Of a stretch of 35,530 nucleotides of DNA, positions 27,861 through 35,530 are shown piece after piece. The first letter of the stretch is position 1; the number at the start of each line of letters is the position of its first letter. Below the pieces are notes generated by a model, which worked only from the letters and a program-made list of their open reading frames with translations, was not told the origin of the DNA and did no database searches. Both the position numbers and the translations under genes were made by a program. The DNA comes from Gammaproteobacteria bacterium (GTDB lineage Bacteria > Pseudomonadota > Gammaproteobacteria > BMS3Bbin11): assembly GCA_013150915.1 (NCBI GenBank), contig JAADJE010000094.1, forward strand, positions 18,489 to 54,018. Reading direction: 5' to 3'.

Positions 27861-27884
27861 GTAGGAGCGCCGTCTCGGCGCGAT
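27861..27884 (+). repeat. REP-like unit (single copy)
   Basis: GTAGGAGCGCCG followed by TCTCGGCGCGAT forms a GCGCCG/CGGCGC hairpin with a three-base loop. It differs by a single base (T for C in the loop) from both arms of the inverted pair at 35419-35487, so it belongs to the same REP family. No REP-associated tyrosine transposase is present in the window. Confidence 0.7.
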
Positions 27885-29946: not shown

Positions 29947-30960
29947 TCAAAACAAATACACATCCGGCCAGTTGTCATTACCGGTATGAAAAGTCAGGCG
30001 AACTGCCGATTCTGCAGGTGCACCCACCTGCCACAGGAATATCTCATAATCGCCACTGTCATGCTCATGCCCATCTTTCCCACCCTTGCTGGCACCAAAT
30101 ACCAGGTATTTCTCATTATTTGAAAGTTTAGGAAAATATTCGTGGCTGAATTCTCCCGGTATATCCAGCCATTTAGTTGATTTTTCTGTCTTCGGATCAT
30201 ACAGGTAGAATGCATTTTTCATCTTGCCACCATAACCCACATAGTAAAGGTAACTCCCGTCCTTGCTCCAGGTAAGCTGACAACCGTCTGAAATTTCTTT
30301 GAGCTTGCCATACATGTCAACAGTAGCTGCCATGCGCTGACCATAGCGCAGCGTCACGGCCATTTTATTGCTATACGTATTGAACCCCGGTGTGGTCAAC
30401 GCTGCGTTCTTTTTGACGTCACCGTTGCCGCTGGTGAAAAGAATGCGCTCTTCACCTGTCTCAATATCAATTTCAGCCAGGTTCATGACATTGCGCTGAA
30501 AATACACCTTTTTTCCATCGATAGACCAGGTAGGGGTATTGGCATTTTTGGCCAACACCCTTTCTTTCCCCGTTTTGAGATCGAGCAGAATAGTGTCCCA
30601 CAGCTCCATGTTACGTTGTGACACCCAGGGTTTTTGTGATCGGGAAAAAACAATGTATCGTCCATTCGGAGAGATCCGAGGAAAATACTCGGTATAAGGA
30701 TTCGTGGTCAAACGTGTAATTTTTCTTCCCGGCAAGTCCATCTTAAGTATGTCGTGATTACCAAAGCGATTTGAACTCCAGACAATAAACCCAGCCGGCA
30801 ATTCCGCCGCCTCAGCCACCTTTTGCATCATGACAGAAACACCCGCAGGCGGCGGAGTAAGACGACCTTGCTTAAGCTGCCAACGCATATAACCCGCGAT
30901 TGCCACAGCAACAACCAAAAGACCTGAAATAACGACAAATACAGTACGCTTCCTAATCAT
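29947..30960 (-). CDS. Membrane-anchored TolB-like beta-propeller protein
   Basis: A 337-residue protein with an uncleaved-looking N-terminal anchor (VFVVISGLLVVAVAIAGYM, about residues 7-25); the rest is probably periplasmic. It is made of PD40/WD40-like beta-propeller repeats: IVWSSNRFGNHDILKMDL, RISPNGRYIVFSRSQ, PTWSIDGKKVYFQRN, LTWSKDGSYLYYVGYGG and KLSNNEKYLVFGASKGG. TolB has the same repeat style, but this is not TolB itself, since the tol context and the N-domain are lacking. It starts 12 bp after the flippase-like gene and so is probably in the same operon. A role in an envelope process is likely, but its ligand is unknown. Confidence 0.75.
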   Translation of the reverse strand: MIRKRTVFVVISGLLVVAVAIAGYMRWQLKQGRLTPPPAGVSVMMQKVAEAAELPAGFIVWSSNRFGNHDILKMDLPGRKITRLTTNPYTEYFPRISPNGRYIVFSRSQKPWVSQRNMELWDTILLDLKTGKERVLAKNANTPTWSIDGKKVYFQRNVMNLAEIDIETGEERILFTSGNGDVKKNAALTTPGFNTYSNKMAVTLRYGQRMAATVDMYGKLKEISDGCQLTWSKDGSYLYYVGYGGKMKNAFYLYDPKTEKSTKWLDIPGEFSHEYFPKLSNNEKYLVFGASKGGKDGHEHDSGDYEIFLWQVGAPAESAVRLTFHTGNDNWPDVYLF

Positions 30961-30972
30961 AATCAGTCACCT

Positions 30973-32052
30973 TCATCCTTCCTCTTTCCCCTTATTTTTA
31001 CCCGTAACCAGAAAGAATCCCATCAACCCAAGCCCCCCCAGTGTATAATCAACCACCTGGCTGATCAGATGGATAACAAACATCACCATTAAAATATCTG
31101 CCGCGGCAAAACCCAATACAGAAAAGGCCAGCATCCCGCCTCCTTCATAGGTACCGAAACTCATAAATGTGGGCAAGGGTAAACTGGCTGCCGCCTCGGC
31201 AGTGATAAATGCCGGCAATATCTGCCACCATGGTAGCGAAGCGAATTCATGAAAACTGGCCAGGGTGACCGCAATAAATAAAATATACAGCCCACCGTAT
31301 TTCAATACACGGATACCAAGTGATTGAGAAAGCGTAAGCGATAATATCTCACGCTGTTGCACGCGTCGGATAGACATACCCACTTCCAGCAAAAATTCAC
31401 CAAAACGCTGCAATATCCTTATTTGGGTAAAATCCATAAGACGTGAGAAGCCCCGGCTAAGGGGTACAGCAGCAAAAATTATAAGCCCTGATATAAGCAC
31501 GATGAGTGATGTTGCCACCAGGGCGTTACCAACAGAAATTTCGAATTGAGTGGCGGAAAACATAGCCCCCAGCACAATGGCAATCAGAATGACTGCCAGC
31601 GCCAGCATGTCCAGTACAATACTAATAAACAGTGTTGACAGACATGCTGATACCGGCACGTGGTAACCCCGATTCAGCATCAGGATATAACTGGCTTCAC
31701 CAATACGTGCTGGCACCATATCAACGAACATATTTCGGGCCAGCGTTATCAGGAACATATAGGGTGTGCCAGGGATAGCCTTAATTCCATCAGCCCTTAG
31801 CAAGGATTGATACCGCACCGCTCTGAGTAAGGTTTGTAGAATAGCTGTAATAATGTATATGGAGGCCAACCACCATACGGTGTTACGTAAAACTCTTTTA
31901 AACAAGGCCACATCTTCAGACTGGTTTCCCGAAGAAACCAGCCACCATAGAAAGAATAGAATAAAAGCAGAGGCACCCATCGAGAACAGAATACGCCACC
32001 TCCATGAGTGGCTGCTGAGCCCCGCTGCATTGCTATGATTTGAATTCAGCAA
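30973..32052 (-). CDS. Flippase-like integral membrane protein (LPG synthase TM / UPF0104 family)
   Basis: A 359-residue protein with about eight hydrophobic segments, for example ILFSMGASAFILFFLWWLV, WWLASIYIITAILQTLLRAV, DMLALAVILIAIVLGAMF and LVATSLIVLISGLIIFAAVP. The sequence FVDMVPARIGEASYILMLNR is the signature of the family that includes the membrane part of lysyl-phosphatidylglycerol synthase (MprF) and other lipid flippase-like proteins. There is no soluble aminoacyl-transferase domain. The apparent start is TTG at 32052, close to an AGGGGG ribosome site; ATG at about codon 25 is an alternative. It heads the two-gene unit with the propeller protein. Confidence 0.8.
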   Translation of the reverse strand: MLNSNHSNAAGLSSHSWRWRILFSMGASAFILFFLWWLVSSGNQSEDVALFKRVLRNTVWWLASIYIITAILQTLLRAVRYQSLLRADGIKAIPGTPYMFLITLARNMFVDMVPARIGEASYILMLNRGYHVPVSACLSTLFISIVLDMLALAVILIAIVLGAMFSATQFEISVGNALVATSLIVLISGLIIFAAVPLSRGFSRLMDFTQIRILQRFGEFLLEVGMSIRRVQQREILSLTLSQSLGIRVLKYGGLYILFIAVTLASFHEFASLPWWQILPAFITAEAAASLPLPTFMSFGTYEGGGMLAFSVLGFAAADILMVMFVIHLISQVVDYTLGGLGLMGFFLVTGKNKGKEEG

Positions 32053-33250: not shown

Positions 33251-33290
33251 ATAATACATTCCTCTATTATTGGAAGCTGACGATACACAA

Positions 33291-34373
33291 ATGTTCAAAT
33301 ACGGCCTGGCTGATTTCAACGACAGCAATGAAATCAAAGCACTTATTGATTCTTTTACCAAGCTTGGTGGGCAACGCACCGACAGTCCGGACTGGGACCT
33401 ACTCTGGTATTTCAGACACGAGCCCCCGACCGAATTGTATAAAAACATCTCGGAGTTACGGCGCATCAACCATATACCCGGTATTCATGTCCTCACGAAT
33501 AAGTGGAATTTATTTACCCATCTGAGTCACCATTGGGAAACAGGTGGATTGGATAATAAAACAAACCCCATCCGTCGCTATTTCCCCAATAGCTGGAAAT
33601 ACCCCGAGGAGAAGGAAGAAATTAGACGCCGATTGCAACACCAGCCAGAAAAACCACTCATTCTGAAGCTGATGAATACTGCAAATGGCGTAGCGATGGA
33701 ACTGCTACAGCACGAAAATGAGCTGCCTGACCATGGCCAGTGGCTTGCTCAAGAGTATCTCGATGACCCGCACCTGATTAATGACCGAAAATATATCCTG
33801 CAAGTTTTCCTGCTGATCACCAGCAGCAACCCGCTAACGGCTTATCTTTACCAGGATGGAGAGGCAGACCTCGCTGTTCAACCCTATTCCACAGATCCCG
33901 AGCAAAGGAAAAATCCAGGCATTCATATTGCCACCACAGTTCTACAGACCCACCAGGCCGATTTCGATTTAGCAAAACACTGTCTGACATTAAAACAATG
34001 GCGTGAACATGTCACTGAAACCACAAATGCAACCCATGTATGGACAGAAATCGAAACCATCCTCAAAGAAACGCTGCGCGCAGTAGCCGAACCCTTACGT
34101 GAGACTGCAAATAAACAGCTTGCGCACCCCGAACAATGCTTTGAACTCCTGGCTGTTGATATTATGCTCGACAGCACACTAAAACCCTGGTTGATAGAGT
34201 GCAATCGCTCTGCAAGCATGCAGACGCAATACAGTGGTTATTTAAAGTCTACTCTACTGAAAGATGCGCTAGCCCTCATCCTTGAACGTCGACAGACGCT
34301 ATCTGATACACCCGCCGGCCAGGCTGCCCCACAGTCAACTTCTGAGTTTGGCGGTTTTAAACGAATCACCTAG
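33291..34373 (+). CDS. Tubulin-tyrosine-ligase-like (TTL) ATP-grasp family protein
   Basis: The protein has 360 residues from the ATG at 33291 (MFKYGLADF). A TTG at 33270 would add seven residues but has no ribosome site. The C-terminal two-thirds match the TTL ATP-grasp domain: PLILKLMNTANGVAM, then WLAQEYLDDPHLINDRKY near residues 152-169, and ILQVFLLITSSNPLTAYLY. The metal-binding block CFELLAVDIMLD...KPWLIECNRSAS comes near 282-306. Eukaryotic TTL enzymes ligate amino acids to protein tails; bacterial members are known but mostly uncharacterised. Probable activity is ATP-dependent amino-acid or peptide ligation, substrate unknown. No tubulin-like or ribosomal-peptide substrate is visible nearby, unless it is one of the unrecognised neighbours. 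Confidence 0.75.
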   Translation: MFKYGLADFNDSNEIKALIDSFTKLGGQRTDSPDWDLLWYFRHEPPTELYKNISELRRINHIPGIHVLTNKWNLFTHLSHHWETGGLDNKTNPIRRYFPNSWKYPEEKEEIRRRLQHQPEKPLILKLMNTANGVAMELLQHENELPDHGQWLAQEYLDDPHLINDRKYILQVFLLITSSNPLTAYLYQDGEADLAVQPYSTDPEQRKNPGIHIATTVLQTHQADFDLAKHCLTLKQWREHVTETTNATHVWTEIETILKETLRAVAEPLRETANKQLAHPEQCFELLAVDIMLDSTLKPWLIECNRSASMQTQYSGYLKSTLLKDALALILERRQTLSDTPAGQAAPQSTSEFGGFKRIT

Positions 34374-34460: not shown

Positions 34461-34568
34461 TTTTGAATTTACTGATAGCATAACAATCTCTAATCCGATA
34501 TATTTGAGGTACATGTAAATAAAATAAAAATAAAAAAAATATTACTTCGCTCGCTAGGGGAGAATCAA

Positions 34569-35315
34569 ATGAACAAAAAAATCAATGATAAAGGTGTAGC
34601 AACCGACGTTGCCGCTGAAACAGAACTGAAAACCCGCCGCAAGGCCCTCAAATCAATAATTGCCGCCAGCGGCGTAGTGGCCGGCAGCCAGGCATTATCC
34701 AGTGAATGGACGCGCCCACTGGTTGAGTCAGTCGTGCTGCCTGCCCATGCGCAGACAAGTTTGGTCGCAACGGGCACATTTACCACTGGTAGAGTGGGGG
34801 CAAAACTGGACTCAATCCAGCCCTGGTATGCAAGGACTAATTTACTGGACTCGTTGATTTCACCTGCACATGCAGCTGCCGGCTATGAAGATGGTGTACG
34901 TGATTCTGTCTGTGGAGGGAATAATGGCGACCTTGCTGGCGCCGATGGCGGTGGATATCAGATTATGTTGGATATAGAGGGTAGCAATGTTGACGTTTGC
35001 GTTAGCAGTCTAGGTAACGGCACCGGTAATCCACAGATGTGCACTCGAGAAATAACAACAACCATTGATGGTCAAAACATTGCCGATGTAGACATCCCGA
35101 TGGATAACCTTTACGATCTGACTAGTGATCGGGAAGTTGTTCAACTTCGAAACATTATCGTCGATGACGCATTAAATTCCATCACCGGTAGATTAGACGT
35201 GGTAAATGGAGGTAGCAATAGTTCAACAAGGACATGTGGTGGCGAATTCACCTGTAATCAAACTGCAACTGCTTATTCCTGTAACGCTAGTTGTAGTGCA
35301 GGTTCAGACGAGTAA
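34569..35315 (+). CDS. Predicted Tat-exported cysteine-containing protein with duplicated PAHA motif
   Basis: A 248-residue protein of no recognised family. A twin-arginine-like signal (TRRKALKSIIAASGVVAG, RR at residues 23-24) precedes a moderately hydrophobic stretch. Then comes EWTRPLVESVVLPAHAQTS (46-64), and a second, diverged copy at 86-104 (W...R..LLDSLISPAHAAAG). Both copies share W, R, L, S and PAHA. The mature part is acidic and glycine/serine/threonine rich, with seven cysteines (115, 144, 158, 223, 229, 238, 242), the last four in a tight C-terminal cluster. An AGGGGAG ribosome site supports the start at 34569. The W..P....LPAHAQTS pattern occurs, to my knowledge, in other proteobacterial twin-arginine proteins; its role is unknown. 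Confidence 0.7.
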   Translation: MNKKINDKGVATDVAAETELKTRRKALKSIIAASGVVAGSQALSSEWTRPLVESVVLPAHAQTSLVATGTFTTGRVGAKLDSIQPWYARTNLLDSLISPAHAAAGYEDGVRDSVCGGNNGDLAGADGGGYQIMLDIEGSNVDVCVSSLGNGTGNPQMCTREITTTIDGQNIADVDIPMDNLYDLTSDREVVQLRNIIVDDALNSITGRLDVVNGGSNSSTRTCGGEFTCNQTATAYSCNASCSAGSDE

Positions 35316-35354: not shown

Positions 35355-35418
35355 CGTCGAAGACAATGCCCTCTTCTCTCTCGCGGGGATCACAGAAGGC
35401 TGCAAAGCCAAAGACAAC

Positions 35419-35487
35419 AGAGTAGGAGCGCCGCCTCGGCGCGATTTCTTGATGAAGCACATCGCGCCGAGGCGGCGCTCCTACTCT
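35419..35487. repeat. Inverted REP pair (BIME-like), 27-bp perfect arms
   Basis: The left arm at 35419-35445 (AGAGTAGGAGCGCCGCCTCG and onward) is the exact reverse complement of 35461-35487, with a 15-base centre (35446-35460). Each arm itself contains a GCGCCG/CGGCGC mini-hairpin. The unit at 27861-27884 belongs to the same family. The pair could act as a transcript end or stabiliser; the remaining bases to 35530 show nothing further. Confidence 0.85.
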
Positions 35488-35530
35488 ATTCTGTTTAGGT
35501 TTTGACTTTCCTTCCCCCCTTGAATCTTAA

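Follow-up and report, generated by a model that had tools for sequence, protein, structure and literature searches.

Gene Organization of the Locus

The window, i.e., the whole 35,530-nt stretch of gammaproteobacterial DNA analyzed here, holds a gene that is the last one on contig C74, with 215 nt between its stop codon and the contig end; the genome measures 2.65 Mb. The open reading frame (ORF) singled out by an earlier note on this DNA proved to be real, and its product carries EWTRPLVESVVLPAHAQTS at residues 46–64 behind K-T-RR-KALK, exactly as had been read there. The C-terminal cysteine cluster was also borne out (Table 1); further cysteines are C115, C144, and C158. The mature part had been called novel, and indeed the window protein gave no match in Pfam, NCBIfam (none at E ≤ 1), or PDB, while a plasmid search returned no homologues of it. 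Two paralogues were found in the same genome, for which the likeness is confined to the first ~55 residues.

The same-strand gene ending 195 bp upstream encodes a TTL-family ATP-grasp ligase, whose match to PF03133 scored 150.7 bits against a gathering score of 20.1 and covered positions 8–281 of 292 of the profile. Its closest solved relatives are the tubulin polyglutamylases TTLL7 (E = 5.6e-27) and TTLL6, with which it shares the TTL-family ATP-grasp and an E-x-N motif (IECN) near the C-terminus; unlike them, the ligase is bacterial, with no tubulin. The window genome has the only full-length TTL found in a search of 11 related genomes, the other ten giving weak C-terminal ATP-grasp matches or none. 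The ligase showed no PqqD match. No promoter-like or terminator-like site was detected on the + strand between the ligase and the window gene, which is weak evidence for their co-transcription. Adjacency alone suggests that the ligase may modify the window protein.

Just 3′ of the window gene lies an inverted repeat of 42 nt (15-nt loop, 88% complementarity) with the core GTAGGAGCGCCGCCTCGGCGCGAT. This core was seen again at position 27861 with one mismatch (0 expected), and the structure is hence regarded as a dispersed palindromic repeat. A TolB-like β-propeller protein adjoins a lysylphosphatidylglycerol-synthase-type membrane protein in the same window.

Table 1. Features of the window and of related loci (G, genome; C, contig; L, locus).
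Feature	Position or location	Strand	Basis
TolB-like β-propeller protein	29947–30960	−	
Lysylphosphatidylglycerol-synthase-type membrane protein	30973–32052	−	
TTL-family ATP-grasp amino-acid ligase, candidate modifying enzyme	33270..34373	+	PF03133, 6.5e-44
Leader-bearing secreted protein (predicted), 248 aa	34569..35315	+	ORF; AGGGGAG at 34556–34562, 6 nt before ATG
Twin-arginine motif T-R-R-K-A-L-K, residues 22–28 (RR = 23–24)	34632..34652	+	RR upstream of W in 68/73 members, other K/R pair in the rest
h-region, weakly hydrophobic, Ala/Gly/Ser-rich, residues 29–46	34653..34706	+	RR-to-W length 4 to 24 residues across the family
W-x-x-P (W47-T-R-P50), proposed RRE recognition site	34707..34718	+	W and P in 73/73 members; W/Y/LxxP reported for PqqD-type RREs
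LVESVVLPAHA-QTS, residues 51–64, signal-peptidase-like site AHA/QTS	34719..34760	+	Cut predicted between residues 61/62 (nt 34751/34752)
Second motif M2, LLDSLISPAHA, residues 92–102, possible second A-x-A processing/junction site	34842..34874	+	Recurrence in mature parts and DUF1318 lipoproteins
Mature domain, predicted all-β, residues 129–242	34953..35294	+	Low-confidence AlphaFold2 model (mean pLDDT 53.6, pTM 0.37)
C-terminal cysteine cluster C223, C229, C238, C242	35235..35294	+	Sequence
Inverted repeat	35404–35502		
PqqD domains near members	G000:C79, G004:C260, G129:C423 (two), G261:C1, G261:C2		
Small YxxP Tat peptides at 7 other PqqD loci	G000:C93, G164, G246, G345, G365, G367, G369		
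Loci of the small YxxP Tat peptides	L203, L204, L205, L206, L209, L198, L114		
~500-aa members with three M2 copies	L083:2055–3566, L120:7066–8643		

A Leader Common to Mostly Unrelated Proteins

Scanning 84,980 species genomes, together with class-wide searches, gave, in the loci fetched, at least 73 distinct proteins sharing the leader W-x-x-P…LPAHA-QTS. In 73/73 members, the spacing is fixed and W, the P three residues on, P(−4), H(−2), and A(−1) do not vary; position −3 holds only A, V, S, or T, and Q-T-S follows at +1 to +3 in nearly every case. The selection patterns contained part of the conserved motif, but all ORFs picked by LP.HA alone (67/67) also have W-x-x-P in register. G272 and one G356 match, which have the RR half only, were left out of the member count. 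At the sequence level, this common leader with its invariant W-x-x-P and its A-x-A stands before mostly unrelated mature parts, of which 70 fell into 45 clusters. This agrees with the suggestion of the earlier note that the first motif lies outside the mature fold and may be a processing signal, here as part of a leader; lack of conservation among homologues had been named there as one refutation, and the motif is conserved in 73 proteins. By eye, the mature parts include fasciclin-like (L063) and S74-chaperone-like (L006, L061) sequences and Thr/Pro-rich linkers. A mature Cys-rich family of ~60 aa has 13 members (L021, L028, L032, L033, L035, L037, L043, L060, L069, L073, L075, L080, and L085), and all of their genes except L037 (12/13) lie directly behind a same-strand ORF, mostly that of a giant, repetitive surface protein.

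The taxonomy labels of all confirmed scan records were Gammaproteobacteria, Arenicella, Arenicellales, or Proteobacteria, and within the genomes scanned the leader was found only in such Gammaproteobacteria-type records, its proteins belonging to a few uncultured gammaproteobacteria. One same-genus genome (G004) carries twelve leader proteins, and three others of that genus with completeness of at least 91% gave none. A phylum-wide search for the leader returned only the window genome itself, plus a weak partial match with stops in a same-class genome. Within the set of papers searched, we found none containing PAHAQTS and none combining twin-arginine, PqqD, precursor peptide, and glycosyltransferase; related queries likewise gave nothing on point.

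The first motif follows a Tat-type RR region, as had been noted, and ends in an A-x-A site. The Tat-type features comprise RR before W (68/73), A at −1 (73/73), and a small residue at −3 (73/73), and TatC was found in every genome checked, including the window genome. The window protein did not match the TAT-signal model TIGR01409; one member, L018, passes it (21.7 against a cut-off of 16.7). The leader shares RR, an Ala/Gly-rich h-region, and A-x-A with Tat signal peptides of the TIGR01409 kind, whereas its invariant W-x-x-P and P-x-HA and the QTS conserved past the site set it apart from them.

Neighborhoods Containing PqqD and Modifying Enzymes

In terms of gene order, some leader genes cluster with genes for RiPP recognition elements (RREs) and modifying enzymes. 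W/Y/LxxP is reported as a recognition sequence of RREs of the PqqD, FusE, and McjB groups (PMC12710340). Of 18 PqqD domains, six have a member no more than 4 kb away, where 0.27 would be expected (P about 1e-7); the radius was picked after the data were seen, and two of the six, both in G129, form one cluster. PqqD is present in 5 of the 6 genomes with the leader family versus 99 of 363 others (Fisher 0.008). Fusions of RREs with PF00535 glycosyltransferases have been reported (PMC12710340), and two PqqD domains beside members (G000:C79 and G129:C423) are joined to glycosyltransferase-like sequence. The G129 cluster also holds an aKG-HExxH peptide β-hydroxylase, the only one in 11 genomes, and its two leader genes are further surrounded by an HprK-like/glycosyltransferase fusion and an NTP_transf_5-like gene. 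Elsewhere, members have O-FucT, GlcNAc, and GT2 transferases and a kinase as neighbors. When immediate neighbors were compared with distant ORFs, GT2 occurred 5 times versus 0, and kinases and NTP_transf_5 were also enriched.

No PqqD gene adjoins the window gene up to the contig end. Most members likewise lack a PqqD within 4 kb (e.g., 8 of 10 in G261, all in G149 and G356, and nearly all in G004), which means that for them RREs would need to act in trans. G085 (81% complete) contains a member and gave no PqqD match. About a dozen members sit behind giant surface proteins rather than enzymes.

An independent parallel was observed in the same class, where small Tat peptides, in which YxxP immediately precedes A-x-A, lie beside PqqD-HprK fusion genes. 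A regular expression for such peptides recovered 6 of the 7 in 212 kb of PqqD loci, with one spurious match in 695 kb of control loci. They match no NCBIfam model above cut-off and are probably RRE-guided precursors.

A close analogy is given by those RiPP precursors whose leader carries YxxP (lasso peptides, PqqA) and their RRE/PqqD proteins, which share with the present family an aromatic-x-x-P in a conserved leader, a variable downstream part, and nearby PqqD/RRE and modifying enzymes including the aKG-HExxH hydroxylase. Unlike them, the leader described here doubles as a predicted Tat signal, many members are far from any RRE gene, and the putative substrates are mostly 100–500 aa, some of them fasciclin- or S74-chaperone-like. 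Sets of PqqD, HprK-like kinase, and NTP_transf_5 beside L083, L120, and L121 resemble the HPr-rel-A system (TIGR04352 kinase, TIGR04353 PqqD), and, in the same genome, such a set also adjoins a Tat peptide of 71 aa with YTPP (L114). The cut-offs of that system were missed, however (HprK_rel_A 91–100 bits at best against 200; PqqD_rel_X 20.7 against 35), and, unlike in HPr-rel-A, G149 and G356 have the set with no leader protein beside it. DUF2282 precursors with DUF2063 RREs have a Sec signal and no recognizable recognition motif (PMC12710340); what they share with the leader family is an export signal on an RRE-associated precursor.

The Second Motif

A second W..R..LLDSLISPAHA copy had been claimed downstream of the first. 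An 11-residue repeat was confirmed between LVESVVLPAHA (51–61) and LLDSLISPAHA (92–102, hereafter M2), which scored 36 with BLOSUM62, above the best self-match in 100 shuffles (mean 24.2, maximum 34). The first half of the claim does not hold, as the repeat leaves out W: W47 stands 4 residues before LV, W86 stands 6 before LL, and the P of W-x-x-P is missing at W86. W86 was accordingly rejected as part of a second copy, being out of register and having no in-register counterpart before the second motif of other members. A duplicated signal is not supported either, since M2 corresponds only to the last 11 residues before the site, lacking W-x-x-P and a signal-like hydrophobic stretch, and recurs as a junction motif in its own right.

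This recurrence was examined with the pattern Φ-Φ-D-x-Φ-Φ-x-x-A-x-A, loosened at some positions. It was detected in 14 of 70 mature parts, 13–55 residues past QTS, whereas shuffling gave a mean of 0.18 and a maximum of 2 in 1000, and all three members of the window genome carry it. At the DNA level, 22 sites were found in 11 genomes versus 6 with a codon-reversed control. L039 and L083 have three copies each, one before each all-β-looking domain (L083 model of low confidence, mean pLDDT 37.1). Two ~500-aa members, L083 and L120, with three copies before three domains, are bacterial-polyprotein-like. Outside the leader family, M2 occurs in an RHS protein of the window genome and in a DUF1318 lipoprotein of G085. 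DUF1318 (YdbL-like) lipoproteins have it at the tether–domain junction, e.g., VLDFFIPAAQA and LLDLLVPAALA, and differ in having a lipoprotein tether without RR or W-x-x-P. The loosened pattern lies between tether and domain in 13 of 19 DUF1318 loci with a script-found ORF, and in two more by eye. DUF1318 lipoproteins of many Gammaproteobacteria (L160–L189) show [L/V]D-Φ-Φ-Φ-P-x-A-x-A at this place, which suggests a second processing site there.

M2 is best read as a short A-x-A junction motif rather than a second leader, and would probably serve as a further processing site freeing the β domain from its N-terminal tether. A serious rival, to which we give less than even weight, is that M2 is a vestige of fusion, namely the old signal-peptide end, no longer cut, of modules that became fused downstream of a Tat leader or a lipoprotein tether. 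Its position at domain junctions, its A-x-A ending, its presence before each of the three domains in L039 and L083, and its occurrence in tether-fused DUF1318 lipoproteins would all fit such an origin. In most copies, however, the residue 8 positions ahead of the final A is D, N, or E; such residues are uncommon in the hydrophobic core of a signal peptide, and their recurrence suggests that selection is still acting.

Proposed Role of the Leader

The N-terminus is best explained as a bifunctional Tat signal and RRE leader through which protein-sized substrates would undergo RiPP-style modification ahead of export, a reading that we favor by a modest degree and that is the best available one given the PqqD clustering, the enzyme neighbors, and the parallel YxxP Tat peptides. 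The Tat signal peptide would be made up of the RR pair, the weakly hydrophobic h-region, and AHA/QTS, and the invariant W-x-x-P-(V/I/L)2 would be a docking site for PqqD-type RREs. In the cytoplasm, RREs fused to or working with glycosyltransferases, hydroxylases, and HprK-like kinases would modify the protein-sized substrate; for the window protein, the modifying enzyme is probably the adjacent TTLL-like ligase. The modified, folded substrate would then be exported by Tat and cut by signal peptidase I after AHA, and M2 would probably be cleaved as a further site, releasing the β domain from its N-terminal tether. What we infer from the sequences is binding by RREs, modification of the substrate, export through Tat, and cleavage at the two sites. 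W-x-x-P is short, and its role could be something else.

The leader might instead be a lineage-specific Tat signal and nothing more, whose W-x-x-P…LPAHA-QTS would be a conserved c-region recognized by Tat and signal peptidase I and spread by duplication and domain shuffling, the neighboring genes reflecting surface-protein and glycan islands. The RR pair, the variable h-region length, an A-x-A with −3 residues permitted to signal peptidase, the passing of TIGR01409 by L018, and the many members adjoining giant DUF7933/TSP_3/DUF11 surface proteins instead of enzymes all accord with it. Signal peptides, however, do not need an invariant W, P, and H or a conserved TS at +2/+3, and this reading explains neither why PqqD domains cluster with members nor why YxxP Tat peptides occur in parallel at further PqqD loci, so that we regard it as rather unlikely. 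Still more improbable is a sorting or anchoring signal read by a sortase- or exosortase-like factor that fixes proteins to the surface, similar to PEP-CTERM but N-terminal. Such a role would account for the occurrence of one signal before many mature domains, its many copies per genome (12 in G004), the conservation that continues beyond A-x-A, and the frequent tandem with giant surface-protein genes, but no recurring transpeptidase-like gene was seen among the immediate neighbors. Moreover, the known tags of the PEP-CTERM kind are C-terminal.

The bifunctional Tat/RRE leader may be one instance of a general export-coupled modification pathway, in which W/Y-x-x-P Tat signals let RRE–enzyme fusions glycosylate, hydroxylate, phosphorylate, or, as here, polyglutamylate folded, protein-sized substrates before export, and a second A-x-A frees domains, polyprotein-like in two members. 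We advance this extension tentatively and think it somewhat doubtful. If true, RiPP-style leader recognition would reach beyond small peptides, with the same code marking whole secreted proteins before Tat export, and this would offer one rationale for choosing an export route that carries proteins in folded form. It would also provide substrates for orphan PqqD–glycosyltransferase fusions and for a bacterial relative of tubulin polyglutamylases, together with a motif by which such substrates can be found.
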